Assembly: GCA_019400425.1 (NCBI GenBank)
Contig: JAFREE010000301.1
Coordinates: 1 to 14,525, forward strand
DNA: 14,525 bases
Direction: 5' to 3'
From: Hymenochaete sp. R1
Lineage: Eukaryota; Basidiomycota; Agaricomycetes; Hymenochaetales; Hymenochaetaceae
Position 1 is the first letter of the stretch, and the number at the start of each line of letters is the position of its first letter. Positions 162-14,525 of the stretch are shown in pieces. The notes below the pieces were generated by a model. That model ran no database searches and was not told the origin of the DNA. It saw only the letters and a program-made list of their open reading frames with translations. A program made the translations under genes and the position numbers.

Positions 162-3100
162 ATGTTACCTGTGGCTCCTCCCACGTCTATGTCCTCCCAA
201 GATGCCGAATCAACTTACGTCTCAACCTCAGAGTGCTCATTAGATGCTTATCGAAACGTAAGCTACTCGCTTTGTGTTGCATAGTAGTACGTGCTAAGAC
301 GTGCTTGCAAGGCATGGACGCCCTCTGCCTCCGTCGAGGGCTCGAGCGCCAGGTCCAAGTTCGAATCTACTTCATCAGAAGAACTAAAGTTGCAACTTGA
401 AACGATAAAATTTAAGTGGGAGGAAGTACAAGGACGACGGGCCACACTAGTAAACGCCGTCGACGGACTGAGTCCCTCTTCCAGCCTAGCGGACTTCACC
501 AATTGTGAAAAGGCGCTGTTGTCCGAGATCACCTACCTCGCGTCGCTGAGGGAAGAAATACAACCCTTATGTAGTCAGTCTTCAGACGTGAGGGCGGAAG
601 CTTCTATGCTTCTCGGAAAAATAAGAGATGGAGAAAAAGAGCTGATCTTGGCACGAAACAATCTGGCGATTCCAATAGGAGCCAACCTTGTCAGTAAGTA
701 ACTCCCTCTCTGCCTTGATGGACAAAAAATGACACAATCCACACCCTAGCCCCTCCCCAATTCAATCGTTTAAACCAAGTTCAACCCATCGTCGCCATCT
801 CCATGCTTTTGATTGTTGTCTTCTATGTTTTTGGGGGCCTCTCACGCCAATGGTGCAATGCCGGTCTCCAATGTCTACAGAAGCTTCTGAACTTGACGTC
901 TACTATGCGTCAGGCCCGGGACTGGCGAATTCCAGTCGACATTCGCACCATTTTCGAGAAACTGAACTTGACTACGAAAACAATAACTTTCGCCGCGTGC
1001 CCGAGGTGCGGCCATTGCTACCGACCAAAGAGCTGTGGTTCGGGTGGAGTCGCCATTTATCCCCGAAGGTGCACCACCATCAACACCCTCTCAAGGAAAC
1101 AGGTTCCCTGTGACACAATGTTGACAAAATCAGGTATAAAGGAGGGCCTTAGCATTCGAGTACCGATCAAACCTTACGTCGTTCAGGATATCAATGAATT
1201 CCTTGCGCGCATGCTCAGCCGTCCTGGTGTGGTGGATGCACTTCGCGTGGGCTCCATCATTACCCCCCAGGCTACTAATGAACATATCCTGAATGACATT
1301 AAGGATGGCTCTGTACTCCAAAATCTCAAAGGCCAGGATGGTCTACCATTTATGAGGGAAGTCCCGGGTGAACTTCGTCTGGCGTTCTCTTTGTCCGTTG
1401 ACTGGTTTAACCCGTACCATAACAAAACAGCAGGCAAACAGGCATCATTAGGTGCTGTGACCCTTGCATGCCTCAACTTGCCGCCTTCAATGCGCTATAA
1501 ACAGGAGAACCTTTTCCTGGCGGCCATTCTCCCTGGACCTAAAGAAACATCGGTATCAGAAATGAATGCATACCTCGCTCCCATAGTTGGTATGCTTCTT
1601 CGGTCGTGGGAATCCGGAACCCCCTTTGTTAATAGTTACACGGGAGATTCGTTCCTTGTACGATGCATCGTTGGTTGTCTCGTTGCCGACTTACCTGCTG
1701 CGCGAAAGGTCGGTGGAATGGCCCACTTCTCGGCCACAAAATTCTGCTCCTTCTGTGAATTACCGAGGAGCAGTATCAGCAACCTGCAGGTACAGTCTTG
1801 GCCCCCACGTGATCTGGATCGCGTTCGCGATGCTGCGTATAGATGGAAAAATGCCTCTACAAAGTCGGAAAGGAAAAGGATATTTCAACGACATGGGCTA
1901 CGGTGGTCCGAACTCTACCTTTTACCATATTGGGACCCAACCGTGATGATTGTAGTGGATGGGATGCACAATCTCTTTCTTGGTGTGGTTCAGCATCACG
2001 TTCGGAAGATTCTCGGTATTGAGGAAGATAAGGAACTAGAAAGGAAGAAAAAGAATAAGAAGATTACAGACGAGCATCGTTCCGAACCTGTTGGCAGCTC
2101 CTCGACGACTACGGAGGAGTATCAGGCTCGTAAACTTGAGCTCGAAAGAATCAGCGTACGTGATCTCAAGCGTCGATGCAAAGCAGCCAGTGTGAAGGGC
2201 TACAGCAAACTAAAAAAATCGCAACTGGTGGAGAAGCTCCTGGTAAGTCCCGCCGTACCTCACCTTAAGTTATTAAGATGTCCTGAATTTCATTAATAAT
2301 GCAGCGCATAGAAGCATCTGCCCCTCGAGATTCGATTGCATCCGATGAGCTATCATCGGCCTTACCATTGGTTGGACCGGACTTCTTTGAGATACCCTCA
2401 CTAGAGGCTGGCCCTCACGACGTATTGGTAGGACTCACTCCTCTCGAAAAAGATACAATAAGGCAATGCATCTCGCGAACAAAACGACCTCGATGGCATG
2501 CTGCCCCGCCATCAAACCTCGGAAATGCAAATCACGGAAAACTTAAAGCGGACCAGTGGCGCTCGTTGATCGAGTTCGATCTGCCAGTGTCACTGGCTTA
2601 CCTTTGCTTCTACCAAAATCCAGGGGAGGAGGATAGGAACAGACTTACGAAGCTCTACGAATGTACGATGCTCCTGGCTTCTGCTATCGACTTCGGCACG
2701 TCTCGAAATACTTCGGAAAACATCAGAGCAGGCTACTCAGAGAACATGAAAGCATATTTAAAATGCATAGTGGACGGGATACCTCAGAAGGCTTTACTCC
2801 CAAACCATCACCTTTCGCTTCACTTCACCCCTTTCCTAGAACGGTTTGGACCGGCTCGTGGATGGTGGGCATATCCATTTGAGAGAGTGATCGGCTTGCT
2901 GCAAAAATCCAACGCGAACTACAAAATTAGTATGTTTCAACGTCTAATACTCAGATGCAAGTTTGACTTGACCGCATTATCTCCAGATCAATTCGGGCAG
3001 ACGATGCTTAGTAATTTCACGGCAGCTGGTAACGCCTACAACTTATTCTCTGACTCCAATGCGCAACCTGCCGTCCTCGAATGCTTCAAGCTTTTTCCAA

Positions 3101-3741
3101 TCTCGTCAGGTTTGCGAGCTGATATAGGAGGTCCCCGCTTCAATGCTGAGGAAGCAGCAGTGCCGCACGACGAGATTGATTGGCGTAAGATGAGAAGTAT
3201 GGATGATGAATTACAGTTATTACTCGGTGCTCGACAGGAGCAGCTTCAAAAAAAATATGTTCGATGGACAACCCCGACCTTCTTCTTTACTATCAAGTCT
3301 ATAAACATCCGCGGTGTTATTTTCAGGGATCATCGCTCTGGTATGCCAGGCAATTCCTTGGTGTTTTTCCAGTCACGGTCAGAGGGTTTGATTCCTGGAA
3401 AGATACGCCAAATTTTCTGGGTTCCTGTTCCTACAGGTGATGATTGCTGGAAGAGGCTGTTCTTCCTTGCAGTTCACCGCTACCTTCCAGCTCCAAACTC
3501 CCACATGACGTTGGACCCATTTCGCGACTATCCCAATTTCAAAGCGACACTACGATCAAACAGTTTGAGCCATGATATTGAGCTGGTCGAGAGCACAGAG
3601 GAAATCTGCCATGCAATAGAACAGGAGTGGTGCTCTGGAGAGTTCGGGTTATCAGTCTTCAAGCGACTTGCGAGGGTCAGTTTCTTTTGCTCTACAGCTC
3701 GAAAATTAAGTCCAACAACCCTTTTCACACAGGAGAATTGA
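162..3741 (+). CDS. Tnp2/Plavaka-type (CACTA-like) transposase with SAP-like motif
   Basis: Cut-and-paste DNA transposase of the Tnp2/Plavaka group common in Agaricomycetes; it would bind element ends and excise them in the nucleus. Proposed exons are 162-257, 312-693, 750-2242 and 2305-3741, all in frame, about 1135 aa. Numbering from Met803: a hydrophobic stretch (1-12); a cysteine cluster starting CPRCGHCY (66-103); candidate catalytic acids in SVDWFNP (D200) and VADLPAARK (D296); a CxxC at 315-318; DGMHNLFLG (386-394); a charged linker; and a SAP-like helix-extended-helix (450-480) ending at the intron. The last exon has HHLSLH and FERVIGLLQKSNANYK, typical of the group's C-terminal region. 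No internal stop is seen from 312 on. The 5' end is uncertain: there is no ATG in the 288-693 open frame, so I borrow an ATG at 162. A weak optional intron at 3676-3732 would keep the same stop. Confidence 0.8.
258..311 (+). other. Possible intron 1 of the transposase gene
   Basis: GTAAGC donor, an internal CTAAG that could be the branch point, and an unusual AAG acceptor; 54 nt, phase 0. It links an ATG-started 32-codon exon to the open frame that follows. A TAG acceptor at 287 also keeps the frame, but leaves a 30 nt intron, which is too short. Transcript data could place the start elsewhere. Confidence 0.35.
694..749 (+). other. Intron of the transposase gene (56 nt)
   Basis: GTAAGT donor at 694 and CTAG acceptor ending at 749. 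Splicing is phase 1 and joins the upstream open frame to one that is open from 750 through the Met at 803. The joined protein (PPQFNRLNQVQPIVAIS, then the hydrophobic stretch) resembles the region before the cysteine cluster in this transposase group. Confidence 0.7.
2153..2242 (+). other. SAP-like motif inside the transposase
   Basis: About 30 residues beginning ISVRDLKRRCKAASVKGY and ending KKSQLVEKLL. They follow the SAP pattern: helix, Gly-containing turn, basic Lys-Lys, second helix with Leu-Val-x-x-Leu. SAP motifs bind AT-rich DNA. A Lys/Glu-rich linker precedes it. It ends exactly at the exon boundary, so it could have arrived as a module. The call rests on pattern only. Confidence 0.55.
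2243..2304 (+). other. Intron of the transposase gene (62 nt)
   Basis: GTAAGT donor directly after the SAP-like motif and TGCAG acceptor at 2301-2304. Phase 0. It joins two long open frames that lie in different frames and that match consecutive parts of the same transposase family. Confidence 0.85.
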
Positions 3742-5259
3742 GTGATAACGGCGTTGTGAACGTTAGGAGATGGGCATTTATGGGCCGTCGGATACTCTTC
3801 AAAAGATATGATCAAGGACTTGCATTTATATTCACGCGCTCGAGATCCCCGGATGAACCTCTATAGATTCCGACGTAGATAAAGTAGAAAAAGCGTACAG
3901 GATAGTAAATATCAAAGAAAAGAAAATGAGAAAACCCCATGGAACACGGCTGCGTCAGTACTGTAGACGAACAGTGCAAGAAAATAGGACCCAGACGAGT
4001 GCAGGGATGGAATCTGGAAGATAAAGTGACCGTAGTCTCGTTCGCCAATGGCTGCCTCAGGCTGTCTTGCCTGAAAGTCCTTTCAAAAAGATCTTGGGTG
4101 TAGCGTACCATCGTATCGCCTTGATAGCAAAGTGTGCAGCTCAAATTACCTGGAATACGAGATTGCTGCATGAGCCGCAGAAGGGGTGGCGAGTACCTAC
4201 AGAAATAGAAATTCGAGGCGTGATGCAATGCCCTCAGGCTTCAGTGTCGTGTAGAGAAACAAATCAACGAGTGAAAGATACGAATGTACCTCATCGAGAA
4301 GCCACTGACAATGTGCTAGAGCTTTACGTCATTAACCTAAGGAATGAATCACTGGAAGATCCTCGAACTTCTACAGAAAATGAGGTTGAGGTGCAGTACA
4401 ACGAAGTAGCGCAGCATTGTTTGATTCCCTCGAGCTCTTTGTCTTACGGGGATGCGCGGGGTTGGCGGGCCTAAAGTGCGTCTGCACAATACGGTAGATT
4501 TAAGGCCGTCGGTGTCTGGAGAAGGTGCGTCAATATGCAATTCCATGAATTAAATTTCGATCGAAACTACGTACCAAGCTAAATAAAGTGAGGACTCTTG
4601 TTGGAAGAAGAAGGAGGCAAAGTTGTAGATGGAAGGGAAGAAAGAAGGGGAGGAGGGGGAGGAAAGAGGGGAGGAAGAGAACAAGAGAAAGTATTTTCTC
4701 GAATATGCCGAATCCTCAAAGGGTCTAGTTTCCCACAGCGGACATTACATTCATTTTACAGGCTTAACTGCTTACTCTTATTTAGAAACCGCGCACCTTG
4801 CATCGAGGTGTGCAGAGGTCCATTACTAGTAGTCTCGCATCCTTCCGGCGCACAGGGATCATTGCGAGTCTAAGGGATACATCATCCTAATTATAAGTCC
4901 TTCGTCGACCGTCCGGGCCATCCACGCCTATGACAATCGTCGGCGAGGATGCAATACGTTGCATCGCCATGTACTTGTAACATTCCTTTTTGCCCGTATC
5001 AATGTGTCCACCCTGCGCGCTGATTCGAGACGAGGTAGACCAGGCTGTAAGTATGCCAGAACCTAGATGTTAAGGCTCACTTCGGAAGGCTTGCCTGCAC
5101 CTCCCAATTCATCCACCTCCGCTCTATTCCGGGGAGGCATGGGTTGAAGGGACATATCGGCTAGGAAGACTAGTGAGAGGCAAGTTCAAGGGGAGAAAAC
5201 GGACTCTTGCTCTTCAGCTTTAACACCTACCATGCACTGTACACCTCAGGCTCAATGAC
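3742..5259. other. Region without a recognisable gene
   Basis: Several short open frames occur on both strands (for example near 3812-4228 minus and 4067-4474 plus). None has a recognised domain, and the second has only a TTG start. The first 125 bases may include the transposon's 3' untranslated part and its terminus. The stretch contains the purine tract at 4605-4690. Confidence 0.5.
4605..4690 (+). repeat. Purine-only (GA-rich) low-complexity tract
   Basis: About 85 bases of almost pure A and G on the plus strand, interrupted mainly near 4622-4631. The densest part (4632-4680) has runs such as GGGGAGGAGGGGGAGG. Such polypurine tracts can form triplex or other non-B structures and are common near promoters. 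No gene start is evident beside it. An open frame crossing it (4598-4873) is compositional. Confidence 0.75.
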
Positions 5260-5618
5260 TGTGCGCTCTTCCAGCCCAAATCAACCAGGTCTGCTTCGAC
5301 ACTCTCGTCCAGCATGGAGAGCGGAGACCCAAGTTCACTCAAGCACACTACACCTTACGATATACTCCATTTGAAGTCCAGCGGAACGACTAAGTCAGTC
5401 AAAGATAGATGTGAGTTTACTCGTTCCAGCTTCCCTCTGACGTATCCCATGCCCGCTTCCAAGCCATCCAAAACGCATATGACGTCCTTTCAGGCCGCTC
5501 GACCACCCACTTATCCTCGCATGCAGGACACAACAGGGACAACGCGGGTGCGGGAGCCGGAATGGGTAGCATGGGTGAAATAAGTGACGCTGTACTTAAT
5601 GTAGGCCGAGGGAATTAA
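5260..5618 (+). pseudogene. J-domain (DnaJ-like) protein relic, HPD core lost
   Basis: J-domain proteins stimulate Hsp70 ATPase through a conserved HPD between helices II and III. An in-frame stretch from about 5260 through ATG 5314 reads TTPYDILHL at 5348-5374 and then TKSVKDR, matching helix I and the start of helix II. In another frame at 5454-5500 it reads RFQAIQNAYDVLSGR, matching helix III of fungal J-domain proteins, preceded by LPSDVSHA. The sequence between (about 5410-5440) has no HPD and changes frame, so the helix II/HPD part has been deleted. The second frame stops at 5616-5618. It points toward the minus-strand SLP1 tail. A divergent functional gene is unlikely without HPD. Confidence 0.6.
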
Positions 5619-5763
5619 AACGCGAGCGAGTGCGAACACCTTGCCCATTTCTTAGCTAAAACTAACGGCTCAGACAGTTCACCAACTAAGGACACCGAAT
5701 GAGGAAGCGCTGAAGATAGAGGTACAAGTCCATTCTACGAGTGTGCGGGAGCACCTACGCCAC

Positions 5764-5950
5764 CTACGCTGTAGCCGCGCAATTGTCCGTGTCGTGTCCA
5801 TGTCCATGAGTATGGCTGTGCCCGCGCGAACGGGAAGGCTTGACATTAGAGTTTGAGGGCGTTTTGGGTCGACGGGAAGTGAAGTGGCGAGGGTGAGGTG
5901 CGCGTTCTCAGAAGGGATACGCCCTCCAGAAGGTGTAGTTATCGCTTGAA
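5764..5950 (-). pseudogene. Possible 3' tail of the SLP1-type gene beyond the FAS insertion
   Basis: Read on the minus strand just after the FAS fragment, one frame gives RRPKTPSNSNVKPSRSRG followed by HSHTHGHGHD and a stop at 5764; an in-frame TGA lies upstream of it. A Pro/Ser/Arg-rich tail with a His-Gly run would suit the low-complexity C-terminus of fungal SLP1 proteins, whose preceding part lies at 9621 upward on the same strand. The assignment depends on composition and position, not on a conserved domain, so it is weak. Another frame in the same stretch is also open for a while. Confidence 0.3.
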
Positions 5951-6463
5951 TGCTGACTATCCTCCCAGCGAATGCCCCGCGAAGCCGCTGTTATTCTGCA
6001 TGAGACCCTTCGAGCGCATATCCTCGAATGCCGCTTTCTCGGTGACGACAAACGCAATCTGAGCGATCTGCGTCGCGAAGAGCAGGCCAGATAGGTGGCT
6101 AAATGAGCATTGAGGTGCGCAGTTGTCAATGTCCACAAGCAGGGGAAGAGTCTTCACCCGATCGTCTTTGTCCATCGTATCGTACGTCATGTCCATGTAA
6201 TGTTGGGGATCTCTTGTCCCTTGAACCCACCAGAACGAATCGTCCTTCCCTTCGGGTCGTCCTTGACGATGTCAACAATGGAGAAACCGTAGACGGCGAG
6301 CAAGTGCTTATCGGCACCCTCCCAGACTGCTCGAGCTGCAGGCGAGTTATTGTACAGATCCATACACATCCCAGGCTCTTGAGACCCCTGGCCGGTGAAA
6401 ACATATGCGGTACGGGGCTGGGCGGCTTCGGCAGTGCCCTCGAGGACCTTCTCTCCCGGCGAC
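5951..6463 (-). pseudogene. FAS block B: first half of the malonyl/palmitoyl transferase domain
   Basis: Begins GEKVLEGTAEAAQPRTAYVF, then TGQGSQEPGM, DLYNNSPAARAVWEGADKHL and FSIVDIVKDDPKG (about 6456-6250). After a frame change it continues MDMTYDTMDKDDRVKTLPL through ATQIAQIAFVVTEKAAFEDM to the acyltransferase active site FAGHSLG (5963-5983), whose Ser accepts malonyl or palmitoyl. The family has GEYSALASI here. This copy reads GGA-TAG-TCA-GCA (Gly, stop, Ser, Ala) and then leaves FAS homology at 5950. The missing continuation is at 9604, the other end of the insert. Confidence 0.85.
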
Positions 6464-7059
6464 AGCGTGAGCAAGAACTTCTTTCTCATACTTGTCACGA
6501 ATATCCTTGTTGTATACGGGCTCACCTGTCTTGCTGTCAACCAAGCCTACATACAATTCTCCATTTGGCAGACGCTCATCGAAAAGTTCGACGAAGCGCA
6601 TTATCCAAGCCATTTCGATACAACCTTCGACAGTGAACTGCGCTCTCGAATCCATTTCCCACCTCGTACGAAAGCCACCCTATGGGACAACTTCGCCAAA
6701 GCCAGTAACGGCGACAACTTTGTCCAAGTCAATCAGGCCTTGAAGTTTGTTGAGATCATCGAATGCGTTCGTGTCCGATAAGGCCGGGAAGTCGAACTTG
6801 AAATTGGCGCGAGGCGTTACAGAGACTGTCTGAAGGACACGTTCAGCCTTTTCATGCTTCGTGACGGCGAAGTCAGCGAAATTATCAATGGTGATCGCAC
6901 GTCTCAGCTCGGCCTGTGTTGAGCGTAGTGCGGATGTTCGTCGTGATCTCTGCGAGGTCAGGATGGCGGTTCATGCCTCCATTCAGATCAACCCAGATCG
7001 GCTCGACTTGATGGGCGACCATATTCGTTACGTCCATGAGCCCTGTACCTCGCGTGCAG

Positions 7060-7112
7060 CTGGGGAATATAGATCAATAAACTAGGTCAGATGGGCAGTA
7101 ATTGGAACGTAC
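7060..7112 (-). other. Retained spliceosomal intron in the FAS pseudogene (53 nt)
   Basis: On the minus strand, GTACGT donor at 7112, an internal CTGAC, and CCCCAG ending at 7060. Removing it joins codons for AVIG to CTRGTGLMDVTNM in frame, as in the FAS KR region. All splice signals look intact. Confidence 0.8.
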
Positions 7113-8954
7113 CCAATAACAGCTCCCGCAAAACAGAGGTATTCGCCCCAGCTCTCGGAGTTCCAACGTTTGAACAGTGTCTCCAAAGAGATCTTGGACC
7201 CAGAGTCGAGGCCGTCGTTACCGAAAAGACCATGGTTGGGCGACAGAGGAAGGATGTCCTGCGTAGGCCTCGTGACGAAAGCGCGGCTTGCTTTCTTCGT
7301 CTTGACAGCTCCGAGGACTCGGCGAGGAGTCGTAGTAAGTTAACAAGCATGATACGATGCGCAAGTTCGGACTTCGTCGTCGAGACCGTCGATCTCTCGT
7401 CCATTCTCGGGAACAGCAGCGAACGGTAGGATGTAATCCAAGTCGAGACCCAGAGTCGTGTCGATGTAGTCGATGAGAGCCTCAACATCCTGCTTCTAAC
7501 CTTGATTGAATGGGATGACAGTGAGAGCAGATCCACGACTTCCGGTAGACGCCGGTCAACTTACTACTGTATTCCCAGTTTGTTCCTACGTGACGCTTGA
7601 GATGTAAGGGGAGAATCTTGTCGGAAAAGACGGAAGTAGCGTTCTGAATATGTGACCTCATGGACTGAGAAGACGAGCGACGGCTGCGGGGTCGGCGAGG
7701 ATCGGGAAACTTGGCCCGGGGGTCAGATGCCAGTGGTTTTCGCAGCGAACGAACTACACCGTAATAAAGGGCTTTGATTTTATTATTCTGGTCATTATTG
7801 ATCTCTGCTTGCGTCTTGACCACATTCCACAATTTCAGGACATCGTCTTGAATCTTCTGCATATTGAAGGAGCCTGGTACGTTATCACCGCTGGCCATTT
7901 CCTCCACGTATGCTTCCAGCTTGCGCACATTCTCACGAACGACTTCCTTGTAGACGATATCACCGCGCTCCGTGGCCTCAGTGTGGGGCGCAGTTAGTGA
8001 TGTGACTGATAATGAGCTCTGAAACTGGAGATCGGTTCTAACTCTACCTTGTCAATGTGATATTGCATGTAGCGCAGCATAGTCGGGTCCGCGCGGTTCA
8101 TGATTTGAATACACCGCGCCGTGATCTCACGATCGACAGTAGTCAAACGCCCGAAGATGATGTCGTAGAACACGAGAAGTGCATCCTGGCGAACCCAATT
8201 CCATGACGAGTCAAAGTGACGCGCCAGGTTGGATGCCGTCCAGATATAGATTGCCATGCTGCGAGTGATAGAGGCAAGCCGAGCTTGAAGTTCCGCGGCG
8301 TTAGCTCCCTTGACTTCCCGCCAATGAAATCTTTAATTGACTTGGAAAGTGAGGTCTCGTCCATACTCTTCTTAAGCTTCCGAGCAACGATAGTGCGAAG
8401 AACATCCACTGCCTTCAGCGGCTCATCCAGAACGCTAGCAGCGGGTCCTGCCACCACAGGTGGTGCGGTAACTGGGGCTGCAGCCGCTGCGACAGGCGCA
8501 GGAGCGGTGGTAGTCAGTAGCAGGGGCTTCAAGAGCTTGATCCTCGAACTCGTAATAAATTTGTTTCGTGTTGTTGGAGTGGCAGTAGATGGCACGAATG
8601 CGCCCTGAAGAATCATCTTGGATCTCGTATTTCGCTTTGAGCGTGTGGGTCGCCATCCTGACTCCTGAGTGAGAGATAGACTCGGACCGATTTCAATGAA
8701 GCGCTCGAAGTCAAAGAGCCTTAAGAAGATGTCCTGAGTTTCGATCCAGCGAATGGGGGAAGCAAATTGGTATGCGAGAAGTCCGACAAGGATAGTGTAT
8801 GCAAGCTTCTGGCGCCGCTCGTCACTCGCCCGATTGTCGATGAGTTGAGCATACTCCCGAGTTACTTCAAACGGCTTCGCAACCAAGTTCGGCACGTATT
8901 TCCCAATGAGCAAGTCATCATTGATAACGGCTACGTTGATCTTCTTGGACAAAC

Positions 8955-9006
8955 CGAAGGACGGAAGTTAGCAGTTTGAAATAATTAAAGACAAGGTAAA
9001 ACATAC
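8955..9006 (-). other. FAS pseudogene intron with a damaged 3' splice site (52 nt)
   Basis: On the minus strand, GTATGT donor at 9006 and a perfect CTAAC branch site, but the intron ends CG where the frame requires AG. Exon sequence before it reads LWAGVMPFRA and after it LSKKIN, which are contiguous in FAS proteins. Confidence 0.6.
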
Positions 9007-9205
9007 AAGCTCGGAATGGCATGACGCCAGCCCAAAGGTGACGCGAATGGAAGTGTACGTCTATGCCAGGGAGAGGAATAGTAGCGAATCGTCTCTCGAG
9101 TTTGATGTAACCTTCAGCCTTCTTTTGATCCTTCGCTTTCTCAAAGCATGATTTGTTGATCTCGCCAAGCATCTCCACTTTCTCGATGGTAAATTTCTTC
9201 ATAAG

Positions 9206-9255
9206 CCAGAAAATTGTGGTCAACTCGAGCTTAAACGTGCATAATCTTAGCGTAC
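9206..9255 (-). other. FAS pseudogene intron with a damaged 3' splice site (50 nt)
   Basis: On the minus strand, GTACGC donor at 9255 and an end reading TTCTGG where TTCTAG would be expected. Phase 0. The exon sequence NVLNYLKIEKIDIGK before it and LMKKFTIEKVEML after it are contiguous in the MPT domain of the family. Confidence 0.6.
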
Positions 9256-9620
9256 CTTGCCGATATCGATTTTCTCGATTTTCAAATAGTTGAGGACGTT
9301 GGTTAAGGTCTGAAGGGCAACGACTTGCCAACGAGCTCCCCTGCGCAAACGTAGTGCTGGCCCTCAACATTGTAGTTGATGATCTCAAGTAGGAGCTCAG
9401 TCTTATGAGCAATCGAGTCCACGACCTTCGTGGGGTGCTGCATCGTTGAAAGTCTTCGAGATACGACTCGGGTTCACTGCACACATAGCGTAGTTGGAGC
9501 GATTCTGTTCGTCGCGCTCAACAGCACGCTGCGTAGTGATACCACAGTAGAAGACTACATCGACTGGCGATGAGATGGGGGAGGACGTCGGTGATGGATG
9601 CAAGGAGGTGCTTGTGACAT

Positions 9621-11404
9621 TAGGACCAGTTGTAATGTTGTAGGTGAAAGAAAAAATGCGCGCACCTGTCTGATGCGCAACGCTTTGAGGCGTAGGTGTG
9701 GGAGCTTGACACACTGCCTTTGGTGCTTCGCTCCATTCTTTGCTCCCCAGACTCGATAGATGTTTTCTACCCCATTATCGCAATGAATCGTGTCGACGAT
9801 TCTATATAAGTGAGATGATTGGCTCTCCTTGAGAAACGCGAGTAAGAACCATGAAGACAAGAACAGTCAGTAGACGTAGCTAGGCATTACCCATGGCCAG
9901 TCTCTTCTCTAGAATGTCCTCGTCCGAGAGATTGTCGACGCGGGACTGAAGATTATCGGGATCTCGTTCAAGTCATCTTCGATGCATATCCCACTCATTG
10001 ATAGTCCTTTGAAGAAACTGTGCTTGTGATTTACTCTAAATTTTTCGATAAAGCGCCTTTCCGAATTGAAAAAGAAGGAAATAGTGCACTTATAGTTCCC
10101 TCTAGACGACCAGGTCTTTTTCATTCTTCAAGCCTTCGTGAGGCATCTCGCATGCTGCGGACCCACTCTTCAACATAACGCACATAGAAGGTAGAATTTG
10201 ACTCGAGCGCTCGGACGGGTCATAATGGTCCTGTAAGTGGATTCCCCCGAGGATGCCAAACCACCTAATCGAATCCTCAGTTTGGACGGAATATGATGCG
10301 TGTGCCGATAGCGTCGATGTATTGACACGCTGAGGCGCTTCAGAGAGACTCGGGGATGTCGTTATTCTGTCCTCCAGCTGCTCGCCAGACAGATGATTCA
10401 AAAGATGGATTTTGAACGCTGCTTTTTGAACTCTCGTGAACTAGATCGTGGACAAGATTCGATGTAGCTTCATGGGCGTGCGTATTGCTGTGGGTTGATG
10501 TGGATTCAGGCTATAAAGTGAATCGCGGGGTTTCGTCGACGAATGCATCGTCGAATTGTTCATTCGCGAGTAATCATCGCATCACTCGGGACGGACTTAA
10601 TGTCAGAGATGCAAGAGTGTCAGCGATATTGGTGGTGCTCGTGACAGCTTCCTTCGTATTTGTTGAGGCTTCAAGCGACTTCTCGGTATTCACAATCTCT
10701 TGGATCGCCTCAATGACATTTTCGGGCGATGGTGAATGTACTGAATCTATTGCCCGACGCCGAAGGTCTTTGTGTCCCCCCTCATGTTCGCCTTCCCAGT
10801 TTTCGTATTTCCATTGTTCAAGGTGCGTTGGGCCTAGGTCCTGAGCAAGGGAAGCCAATGCGGATGAAACGGTAAAATCTCGTTAGGATGTTGGGGGTGG
10901 TATGACCATCCCACGATATCTATCAGCCTGTATTTTTCGTCAGCGAAGAGTGCAACTCACCTGAATATCTCGAGTATTTTTGGCTCCGTACGTCCCGGTG
11001 GGTATCGATCTCTCTAGATCCGTAGGGACGCAAAGGCAACGCTCACGCTGAAGTCTTTGGACATTCCGCTGAAGAAATTAAAATTCCATACATGATATTC
11101 TCACAAAGCTCAACAACAATGAACCTGTCTTCACCAGGAGCATTGCATGGACCGACCTTGGCAGCACCGTTCCCTCCGTTCTCCAGTACCTGTTCTTGCT
11201 TCGCTTTCCTCGAACGATAGCAAGAACTCTTCCGTGGGCTCATTAGATGATATAGGTCGAAGGCAGCAAACAGGCGGGTCTGGAGGTTTCGGAATATGCT
11301 TCGCGATGTTGTAAAGCGGATTGGCTAGGTGATGGAGATGCAGCGAAGGTGAAAGATAAGAGTAATGCGACGAGTCCGGAAGGCAACAGGTGTAGCTTCA
11401 GCAT
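9621..11404 (-). pseudogene. SLP1: SLP1-type SUN-domain ER membrane protein relic
   Basis: SLP1/SUCO-family proteins are ER membrane proteins with a lumenal SUN domain that help protect folding proteins. Minus-strand order fits end to end: ATG 11404 with a signal-peptide-like LHLLPSGLVALLLSFTFAAS; EEFLLSFEES near 11225 (family FLSFEEWK); SUN pieces PCNAPGEDRFIVVELCENI (about 11150-11090), FFSGMSKDFSVSVAF, GTYGAKNTRDIQ (to 10961), RFYRFIRIGF, and GPTHLEQWKYENWEGE (about 10830-10785); a Ser/Thr-rich spacer; GESTYRTIM (about 10234-10208) then ALESNSTFYVRYVEEW; RVDNLSDEDILEKRL; and a membrane segment LLTVLVFMVLTRVS near 9875-9825. It changes frame many times, lacks the start of the SUN domain, and lacks the NEYYCP part. 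A weak intron lies at 10920-10960. After about 9650 the tail is low-complexity, and FAS sequence begins at 9604. Confidence 0.75.
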
Positions 11405-11770
11405 CGCAGACGGCAATATGTCGTCGTTAAAGAATGGCGCCAGCGTACTCGTTACTCCTGATCATGATGGTCATTGGTAAAGTTAAAGTTAAAAGTGCGA
11501 CACGGAAGTCGACCACGGCGCCACACGCGAAATATAGTAGCCAACGCAGCTGACACACGAAATTTACTCGCGATCGGAATCAACTAACCATTTCTTCACT
11601 GGCCATGATCATGACTATGGAAAGTTTAAATTTGTATATCATTATCCATGGCCAGAATTTTTACTCAGGAATGTGATATCCGGGGTATCTTTGAAGTGAA
11701 ATCATATACATCTACTTTGGAACAATAATGACATGAACAAGTGTAAAGGAACACGATGGTCTATCGGGAA
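11405..11770. other. Region without a recognisable gene, upstream of the SLP1 relic
   Basis: AT-rich spacer between the SLP1 relic start and the 3' end of the F-box gene, transcribed the same way. It would once have held the SLP1 promoter. Visible small features are a short direct repeat (11477-11495, GTAAAGTTAAAGTTAAAAG) and a 9-bp inverted repeat at 11599-11607 and 11647-11655. No coding signal was recognised. Confidence 0.45.
11599..11655. repeat. Short inverted repeat CTGGCCATG / CATGGCCAG
   Basis: Perfect 9-bp arms at 11599-11607 and 11647-11655, separated by 39 AT-rich bases. It lies between the F-box 3' end and the SLP1 relic start. It could be a dimeric regulator site, but one such repeat is also expected by chance in this much sequence. 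Confidence 0.3.
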
Positions 11771-12598
11771 TTATGTGCTGTGACGCGAAGCCATCTTCGT
11801 AGGACGCACCAGAAACCTTTTCTGCCATGGCCTACGTCTTACCCCTTCCCCCGGCCTACAAGAGACTATGGACACCTTCGAACGTAACTGCGGAAAAGCC
11901 TCCAGATCGACTTTGGGGCAATCGTTAAGCTGCAGGACACCAGTACAACAAATGCATGGGATATTATCCAAAGATGCTGCCATACATGCACTTGATTGAT
12001 CCTGAGGTTGAAGTTTATCGTTCGTCGACGCCCTCGCCACAAGCCGAGTCCAATTTATCTTTAAGTCAAGCTTTGATAAGCCGAACAACGTGCCCCGCCT
12101 TGAATGCCGATGTGCCATTACGAATCATCAAGGTATTCCAGCAATGGCGCTTCTTCTAAGATATTGAAGTCCGTACTTGGATCAGGAATGCTATAAATTT
12201 GTCGCAAAGTCGACGTCTTTAACATTGGTGGTGACCGCGATTGCCAACATTCCACCTTCTCAACGAATAGCTCCTCGAGGACTGGAAATTCAAGTTTGTC
12301 CATCAACGAATCGTACAGATACGCCTGCAAGAGGGTTGAGTCGTCCAGAATTTCGAGATGTTTTAATCGAGGAAGCCTGGTACTTGACGCAGCGGGAATG
12401 AAACCATGACCGTCGTGCTGACTCGGAGTTGCAGTCATCTTCAAATGCAACCTCGTAAGGTTAAGAAAAGAAAGTAACTTGGGTCGTAATTCTGAAATCT
12501 TTTGCGTCCGAGAGACAAATTTTGTTCAGTATCTCCTCCAGCATACCATCTCCGGAAACAGTTCGGTTCGTAGCGATACGGTCGAAGTTGGTACCATT

Positions 12599-12640
12599 CT
12601 ACATCACAGGGCGCTTGGAGCCCCTTAGATGTGCCCATAC
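12599..12640 (-). other. Intron in the F-box/LRR gene (42 nt)
   Basis: On the minus strand, GTATGG donor at 12640, CTAAG as branch site, and ATGTAG ending at 12599. Phase 0. Without removal a TAG stop ends the frame exactly at the acceptor. With removal the frame runs on into NGTNFDRIATNR and GMLEEILNK. Confidence 0.65.
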
Positions 12641-12867
12641 GTTCCGGGACAGTAAATGAACTGCCTTCGTATGTGAATCGACATTATACCCTCTCAGAGT
12701 GAGATACGATATCCGCCCTCGAGAACGAGTGTTCCACTCTTTGATTTTCTCTTGTTTCGTTTTCGCTTCCACAACAAGTCGGCTCAAAAACATAGTGTGT
12801 TGAGAATGAGCTGCCTCCCACGCCCTACAGATAGGCGTCATCCGAAGCATCTTGGTGTTGCTACCAC

Positions 12868-12881
12868 ATATATATATATAA
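12868..12881. repeat. TA dinucleotide microsatellite inside the F-box coding sequence
   Basis: A perfect TA run that, on the minus strand, sits directly after the codons for RIFCEV. As written the frame ends in ATPRCFG and a stop. With one TA unit fewer the reading frame runs into CGSNTKMLRMTPICRAW, completing the F-box. The repeat length therefore decides whether this gene reads through. Confidence 0.75.
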
Positions 12882-13098
12882 CCTCGCAAAAGATCCGAAT
12901 TATCAATTCCACAGGCAGCTTTGCGAAATGACACTGGATTGCCTCCCACGTTTTCTGGGCCTTCTGCTTGATGTTTGCGAACTCTGCGTGGCGTTTCGAG
13001 TCACTCGCATCCGTTAGTTCCAGTGCGGACTCAGTCATCATGAAAGCAGAAGAGTGCTTCCCCGGATGTGGAAAAGGCCGGGCCGTGCGCGAAGAACC

Positions 13099-13156
13099 CT
13101 GATAGACAAGCGCCACATTGAGCGAACATCCTAAGCAGCTTCAAGCACACACGCAC
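13099..13156 (-). other. Possible intron for an alternative 5' exon of the F-box gene (58 nt)
   Basis: On the minus strand, GTGCGT donor at 13156 and CTATCAG ending at 13099, phase 0. It would join an exon starting at ATG 13273 (MCQPSSAPSSDDS..) to the frame leading into the F-box. That exon overlaps the end of the upstream coiled-coil gene by 56 bases in another frame, so the simpler start at 13041 is preferred. Confidence 0.35.
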
Positions 13157-13217
13157 CTGCCATGACGAAGGTGCAATCTCAATGACCTTGAACGCATCCC
13201 TATATCGTACTAGCTTT

Positions 13218-14525
13218 TCATGAGTTGCCGCTCGCGAATCGTCGCTTGATGGAGCGCTGGAGGGTTGGCACATTTCGCCGAGGTCGTGCAAGACGTTTCT
13301 TGGTCGGTGACGTGGTCGGGGATGGTCCCTCCGTCGATTTAATACCTGCAGAGCTCGTGATTACAAGTGACGCGGAGCTATCCGCAATGGCATTGACAAC
13401 GTTGTGAGGATCGCCGTGCTTAGAGGATGGGCTCGACGGGTCGGGAAGTACAGGGTGAGGAAGCTCGGTGGTGTTCAAAGCATTGACTGGCGGAGTTTCT
13501 GGCGACACGGTGAGGATAGAAGGAATTGAAGGTGATTGATGAGGCGAGGCAGAATCGGGAGAGGGCGTATCGGTTCGTCGAGGGGAGAGCGTGCAATGGG
13601 CATGCGGGGAGGAATCGTGTTGGCCAGAAAGGCTAGCGCTAGGCTGAGAAATTCCTAGCTTAGGTTGCTCATCTACCTCGGCCATGCGCGTCTGCTGTCT
13701 ATTCGGGGGATCCTTTACCATCTTTCTGGTGACGTCCTCGTTCCCGCAATTGATCGTGCTGAGCACTCCCTCCCCTACAGAAGGGTGCTCAGATTCGGTC
13801 TCAGTAACGGGGGAAGCCGTTGACTTGGTATTATCAGTCGTCGTTTTCTGGAGAGAAGTGGGGATGGAGTTAGTCATGTCGCTCTTACTGAAGTCGTACG
13901 AGGAGCCATTTCTCTCGGAATCGGGATCGGGGTCCGCTTGAGGGTGCTGCTGGGGAAACGTTATAAACAAGGAGAGGGGAACGTCCTCAAGATGCACGTC
14001 TGTAACCTCCATACTCATATTAACGGGCAGCTGAGCTGGACGTGTGAGTGATGCGGAGGGCGAGTGAGTCGAGGATGCCAATGCTAGTGTTGAGGGATGC
14101 AAGGACGAAGGAGACGCCGACGTGTTCCTTCGGGTGCGCTTGCGCGGAGGAACGACGAGGTCGTCGTCGATGCAAGGGGTGCAGTGCAAGGGAGCTTCAG
14201 ACAGGACCCTTGAGGGTACCGCTTGAGGGTGACCGTCTTCCAGTGGGGCCTCCGCTTGTCGTTTCTCCTTTGTGAAGTTGAACTCTTCCATGGCTTTTTT
14301 GACGGAAAAGTAAAATTGGATGTGGGCAGACTGACATGCACTTGCCTGGGCCTTTGCAGTCCTCTCCTTCGTGACTTCCTTGCGAAGATTTGCGAGGTCA
14401 GCTTGCAGTTTCAATTCCCGTTCCTGCGAGGTGTACAACTCCGCCTCCAAGTATTGGCACGTCTTAGACCCGTTCTTCATGCTCCTCTGCATTTCCTCCA
14501 CCTCCTTCTGCGTCTTGAACGCCTG
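13218..14525 (-). CDS. Coiled-coil and disordered hypothetical protein, N-terminus outside the window
   Basis: Family not recognised. The frame is open to the window edge, where it reads QAFKTQKEVEEMQRSMKNGS, so the true start lies beyond 14525 and at least 435 codons are present. The first visible part is rich in Glu, Lys, Gln and Leu with heptad spacing (QYLEAELYTSQERELKLQAD), so it is probably a coiled coil. A basic cluster PPRKRTRRN follows, about 118-126 residues after codon 14501. About 260 residues rich in Ser, Pro and Thr look disordered. The C-terminus is basic (TKKRLARPRRN.. RSIKRRFASGNS), ending with TGA at 13218. The basic clusters suggest a nuclear location, by inference only. 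It lies 177 bases upstream of the preferred F-box start, same strand. The long clean frame argues for a live gene. Confidence 0.7.
   Translation of the reverse strand, partial: QAFKTQKEVEEMQRSMKNGSKTCQYLEAELYTSQERELKLQADLANLRKEVTKERTAKAQASACQSAHIQFYFSVKKAMEEFNFTKEKRQAEAPLEDGHPQAVPSRVLSEAPLHCTPCIDDDLVVPPRKRTRRNTSASPSSLHPSTLALASSTHSPSASLTRPAQLPVNMSMEVTDVHLEDVPLSLFITFPQQHPQADPDPDSERNGSSYDFSKSDMTNSIPTSLQKTTTDNTKSTASPVTETESEHPSVGEGVLSTINCGNEDVTRKMVKDPPNRQQTRMAEVDEQPKLGISQPSASLSGQHDSSPHAHCTLSPRRTDTPSPDSASPHQSPSIPSILTVSPETPPVNALNTTELPHPVLPDPSSPSSKHGDPHNVVNAIADSSASLVITSSAGIKSTEGPSPTTSPTKKRLARPRRNVPTLQRSIKRRFASGNS

Follow-up and report, generated by a model that had tools for sequence, protein, structure and literature searches.

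The window, namely the whole stretch of DNA analysed here, is the entire contig C226 (14525 bp) of a basidiomycete genome that was searched over 27.8 Mb in 336 contigs. It holds a 3654-bp fragment of a fatty acid synthase (FAS) gene (window 5952-9605, minus strand). Read on that strand, it shows L-A-S-I-T-D from about 9604, and GHSLG-G-stop-S-A at the 5951/5952 end. This fragment is set into a duplicate of a region of contig C322, whose frames harbor, according to Pfam, a Sad1_UNC (SUN) domain and, adjoining it, an F-box-like domain. C322 itself carries another, incomplete and inverted, copy of the F-box part (85836-89517).

Other features surround this locus. On the plus strand, positions 288-3741 display a Transposase_21 (tnp2) match, along with a weak Plavaka match below the cut-off; relatives of this region occur on C74, C259, C288, and C139. 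Left of the insertion, positions 3958-4870 and 5205-5536 form a patchwork of pieces similar to other contigs, namely to C262 83-1070 (88-93%) and, in inverted orientation, C12 3462-3911 (67-84%). Positions 1-77 are a high-copy repeat that recurs at, or close to, the ends of several other contigs (e.g. C110, C317, C94, C40), and a 435-residue open frame with no Pfam match (13218-14525, minus strand) runs off the contig end.

Table 1. Features of the FAS copy and of its landing site, with their counterparts on C315 and C322
Feature	Window	Strand	Counterpart and remarks
Left flank	5631..5951	.	Belongs to a truncated copy of the SUN-domain gene region of C322
FAS block 1	5952..6461	-	MPT region up to the active-site motif GHSLG; 88% identity to C315 279713-280223
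Inner join	6462..6462		C315 275577 to 280223
FAS block 2	6463..9605	-	Rest of MPT, alpha part, to KS start (domain names assigned partly by homology); C315 275577-279712, 84-89% identity
Piece 1	5952-6461		C315 279713-280223; far end of donor stretch
Piece 2	6463-7010		C315 275577-276126
Piece 3	7002-7544		C315 276211-276741
Piece 4	7544-8044		C315 276938-277437
Piece 5	8043-8305		C315 277541-277821
Piece 6	8312-9605		C315 278369-279712
Donor intron, retained	7060..7112	-	C315 276321-276269; 53/53 bases aligned
Donor intron, partly retained	8006..8044 (approximate limits)	-	C315 277439-277388; 39/52 bases aligned
Donor intron, retained	8955..9006	-	C315 279123-279072; 52/52 bases aligned
Donor intron, retained	9206..9255	-	C315 279375-279326; 50/50 bases aligned
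Three bases AGG	9606..9608	.	Identical to C322 64044-64046, or filler
Right flank	9609..13242	.	Decayed duplicate of the C322 SUN-domain and F-box region; C322 64110-68346, four pieces, 70-80%

The intact FAS gene and the order of its copy

The only full-length FAS gene detected in the genome is located on the minus strand of C315. It is modelled as one 3943-residue single-chain FAS in normal order with 12 introns, on the basis of open frames and GT-AG sites and without RNA, and the last part of this reading probably still includes an unspliced intron. Its first 2523 residues can be aligned almost from end to end with the fused FAS of fungal relatives; among the best 120 of 843 matches, the nearest belong to Fomitiporia mediterranea and Coniferiporia weirii (82% identity), with Phellopilus nigrolimitatus at 80% and Sanghuangporus sanghuang at 78%, which makes a hymenochaetoid fungus the probable source. 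As assembled, the gene carries one frame break near C315 280578 (280.58 kb), outside the copied block, which may be an assembly error or real. In genome searches that score only the best candidates and that covered the gene up to its last 2.5 kb, a 499-residue protein query found no second full-length FAS, and a 5.4-kb DNA query from the part upstream of the block found no other FAS fragment. No tandem copy of the donor is seen in the C315 alignment or the genome searches, nor is there a second copy of either block at the window's right end or in the donor's 5.4 kb upstream.

A DNA search of the genome with window 5951-9604 returns, besides itself, one place, on C315, matched in six pieces at 84-89% identity. 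By BLASTN of the window against C315 270001-290000, these pieces are collinear within two blocks of the same orientation and exchanged order: the donor stretch has piece 1 at its far end, whereas pieces 2-6, oriented likewise, make up its beginning and middle. Comparison with solved structures of fungal FAS reveals the swapped order independently of the donor alignment: window 6187-6546 corresponds to the beta subunit near residues 1640-1740, but window 8143-8967 to the beta C-terminus followed by alpha residues 4-181. The six aligned pieces are evenly diverged (p=0.48), and the 510-bp block does not stand apart from the others (p=0.14), in line with a single event.

The outer ends of the copy, 5952 and 9605, correspond to the neighbouring donor bases 279713 and 279712, with neither gap nor overlap (0 bp of each). 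The C315 gene reads GHSLGEYSA directly followed by LASIAD, the break falling inside the alanine codon. An earlier note, made from the letters of the window, had placed the active-site codons at the 5951 end and L-A-S-I-T-D at 9604, held these residues to be consecutive in an intact FAS, and concluded that the outer ends meet without overlap or loss while the inner order is exchanged. The minus-strand reading and the intact gene of the same genome agree with all of this, down to single-base precision at the outer ends; an overlap or a gap of many codons, which the note had named as refuting it, was looked for in the C315 alignment and amounts to 0 bp. An order-swapped FAS fragment with donor-adjacent outer ends is thereby confirmed. 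The copy is identical to the donor over the 5 outermost bases at the 5952 end and the 6 outermost at the 9605 end, and the true outer join could sit a base or two away. At the inner join, one base (6462) belongs to neither aligned block, and both donor ends fall within modelled exons. This join is read as the putative closing join of a circle.

The same inner join would result from a tandem FAS duplicate, or a longer array, inserted linearly and later cut back on both sides to one donor base, and tandem duplication with partial deletion is a false positive named in a study of human duplications (Takahashi and Innan 2020, PMC7188851). As the earlier note had argued, this route needs a chance coincidence: with independent uniform truncations in a 4647-bp unit, exact abutment has a probability of about 2e-4, and abutment within 2 bp of about 1e-3. 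The deletions must also halt at both edges of the target, which is intact to 0 and 3 bp. The donor-side false positive described in that study does not apply, as the donor is unpermuted and was not seen in tandem. The tandem route retains a slim chance. Replicative template switching (FoSTeS/MMBIR) could likewise copy two linear FAS pieces in swapped order without any circle, and repair of that type is able to join distant templates (Chicote et al. 2020, PMC7450558). The second piece, however, must then stop by chance exactly at the start of the first, which makes this route extremely unlikely; template switching on a circular template would be a variant of the circle model.

An assembly error is brought to mind by the small size of C226 (14.5 kb) and by its first 77 bp, whose presence at or near other contigs' ends suggests a short-read assembly that broke there. 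In each piece, however, 8-12% of the bases differ between copy and donor, with indels in addition, so that the copy is a separate locus. Furthermore, three misjoins would be required, the outer two of which restore the alignment to C322 across the insert, and the window contains no N. Such an error is thus highly unlikely.

Circular RNA would also yield a permuted order with abutting ends, so that a retrocopy of a circular (back-spliced) RNA has to be weighed. The donor block contains four modelled introns, of which three are whole in the copy and one is kept in part, indicating that DNA, not RNA, moved. With these introns kept and the inner join lying inside modelled exons, away from splice sites, a spliced or back-spliced RNA origin is very unlikely, and the circular-RNA retrocopy as such is vanishingly improbable. 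The four internal losses of the copy were also considered as spliced-out introns, and this was rejected: the lost stretches are coding in the gene model, while the modelled introns persist.

The landing site and the circle model

An insert-free, diverged version of the landing site is present on contig C322. By BLASTN, window 5631-5949 is 76% identical to C322 63694-64041, and window 9609-11155 is 80% identical to C322 64110-65731; weaker similarity (70-79%) extends to window 13242. In a global alignment of the joined flanks, the left flank is flush through 5951 (C322 64043), and the target flanks reach the insert at 0 bp on the left and 3 bp on the right. This alignment contains no target-site duplication. 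At the left edge of the right flank, 63 bp of C322 (64047-64109) are absent from the window. On C322 these are open, in a frame running on into the next stretch, and we read them as probably lost from the window site rather than gained on C322. Together with the three bases AGG, this absence leaves the right join ambiguous. C322 is a paralog of 70-80% identity and not an allele, so that the exact pre-insertion state is a reconstruction. The duplicate in the window is probably dead DNA, given that its match to C322 ends at 5631, that stops interrupt its SUN and F-box parts (6 among 498 compared codons and 3 among 339, respectively), and that their replacement divergence reaches 0.147 and 0.193.

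The joins of the insert are without extended homology. A comparison of the donor ends, 300 bp on either side, gives only one 10-bp inverted match (E 0.27), and no homology is found between the target and the point where the circle would have been opened. The insert lies between a T and an A and has no target-site duplication, which recalls Helitrons, which could have captured the fragment and inserted it, possibly via circular intermediates, and fungal Helitrons with joined ends have been reported (PMC5148889). However, the insert is FAS sequence end to end, no TC start or hairpin end is seen by eye at the junctions in either orientation, and the site TNAT/A given for FoHeli in that report is not matched at the insertion. 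Capture by a Helitron is scarcely credible.

The swapped order, the adjacent outer ends, the unpermuted donor, the introns kept in the copy, the lack of a target-site duplication, and the matching site free of the insert are observed. Very probably, they go back to a 4.65-kb DNA circle that was opened once, end-joined into the truncated duplicate of the SUN-domain gene, and then decayed. A 4647-bp FAS stretch, the equivalent of C315 275577-280223 reaching from within the MPT to the KS start, would have left the gene as double-stranded DNA, by release or by copying, and would then have been closed end to end, without homology, into a circle. A single cut between donor positions 279712 and 279713 would have linearised this circle, which would then have been end-joined into a break of the duplicate, with 63 bp of target lost beside it. 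One cut of a circle gives both outer ends, which explains why nothing is lost between them and why both lie at the target flanks. The inserted fragment, functionless, would have decayed through four larger losses, small indels, and stops. We infer the physical circle, as well as end joining, as opposed to copying off a circular template; the 63 bp would have been lost at the insertion and not later. The single circle proposed by the earlier note is supported by these data, whereas its size is not: the circle would have measured 4647 bp, and the proposed 3.7 kb or so is the present, shrunken length of the copy.

Relation to known circle reinsertions

Reinsertion of chromosomal DNA circles is an often proposed source of structural variation, and its kind is already established in human, cattle, and wine yeast. 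In cattle, Durkin et al. reportedly described in 2012 colour-sidedness translocations through circular intermediates, which resemble the present case in that respect, but are mammalian, large, and associated with a phenotype.

In the human genome, eccDNA-mediated duplication has been described as the cutting of a circle and its reintegration elsewhere, resulting in a swapped order, with three strong candidates once tandem false positives are excluded (PMC7188851). The path from fragment to circle, cut, and reinsertion is the same as here. That account deals with human segmental duplications, whereas the present case is a fungal gene fragment for which the donor and the insert-free site are resolved to the base. 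Human segmental duplications via circular intermediates have also been documented as a change from A-B/C-D to B-A/D-C, with closing joins that are direct or display a 1-bp insertion or 2-bp homology, and with breakpoints lacking homology (PMC7450558). The FAS insert shares the swapped order, a closing join of that type, and breakpoints without homology. It differs from the large human duplications described there, with indels of 1-27 bp, by the larger 63 bp missing here.

Among fungi, region B of wine yeast harbors circularly permuted insertions attributed to a circular intermediate and its non-homologous joining (Galeote et al. 2011, PMC3053389). The present copy is likewise a circularly permuted insertion in a fungus, with similar joins. 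As characterised in that source, however, region B is a 17-kb segment from another species, recent, present in several copies, and equipped with a replication origin, whereas the FAS copy is old, occurs once, and derives from a gene of the kind that the host itself has. A search for two adjacent pieces in reversed order within one set of flanks was carried out by Joubert and Krasileva (2022, PMC9694575); they recovered a wine-yeast case, and their count for 306 genomes of Magnaporthe oryzae (rice blast) was 0. The authors allow that the process may act on time scales beyond the sampling of one species. The present case comes, in contrast to M. oryzae, from another fungal phylum and from one genome, and an old fossil in a single genome fits this view of longer time scales. 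No circle-reinsertion case from a basidiomycete or mushroom was recognised in the open-licence literature, among the matches listed. Here, the donor, the product, and the insert-free site are found at base resolution within one basidiomycete genome. This suggests that, besides strain comparisons, a scan of old fragments inside single genomes could look for pieces that are swapped and abut; the rate at which circles reinsert in fungi over the long term would thereby become measurable.

Decay and divergence of the copy

Compared to the 4647-bp donor unit, the FAS copy lacks stretches of 84, 196, 103, and 547 bp, at about window 7002-7010, 7544, 8043-8044, and 8306-8311; the first of these losses (84 bp) is located at a 9-bp near-repeat. 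The alignments display 18 further indels, 15 of which are not multiples of three, and stop substitutions are found at 3 of the 1131 compared codons. An amino-acid difference is observed in 132 codons. At 99 of them, four related FAS are unanimous with the parent, and at 2 with the copy; in the other 31, the relatives agree partly with the parent (17), partly with the copy (3), are mixed (4), or agree with neither (7). Residues identical in the parent and the four relatives are changed in the copy in 94 of 880 cases, and the other residues differ in 38 of 251. The losses, the frame-breaking indels, the stops, and the changes at conserved residues indicate that the copy is a dead fragment.

Its divergence from the parent is uneven over classes of sites. 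Differences amount to 69/1141, 60/1140, and 202/1139 at codon positions 1, 2, and 3, and to 25/194 in introns; without CpG sites, the corresponding values are 47/914, 41/988, 135/886, and 23/178. Over 1131 codons, dN/dS between copy and parent is 0.19 (0.15-0.24). K80 distances are 0.058 at 0-fold (replacement) sites and 0.224 at 4-fold (silent) sites, a ratio of 3.86 (2.95-5.16). From a copy dead since its origin, a ratio of at most about 2 would be expected, and next to the neighbouring SUN and F-box duplicates (1.58 and 1.70, respectively) the FAS value is odd. Either the donor FAS had already diverged, or the active gene evolves unusually fast at its silent sites.

This silent excess bears on which FAS was the donor, and not on the circle. 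A circle derived from an already diverged FAS, outside the line of today's gene, is conceivable but less likely than not. Such a donor might tentatively be sought in a second copy since lost, in an allele that had split off deeply, or in a related lineage whose gene was acquired by hybridisation or DNA uptake. If this held true, circles would move gene pieces between lineages, as has been proposed for wine yeast. The differences in the introns (25/194), for their part, fit simple decay of the copy and do not require an already diverged donor.
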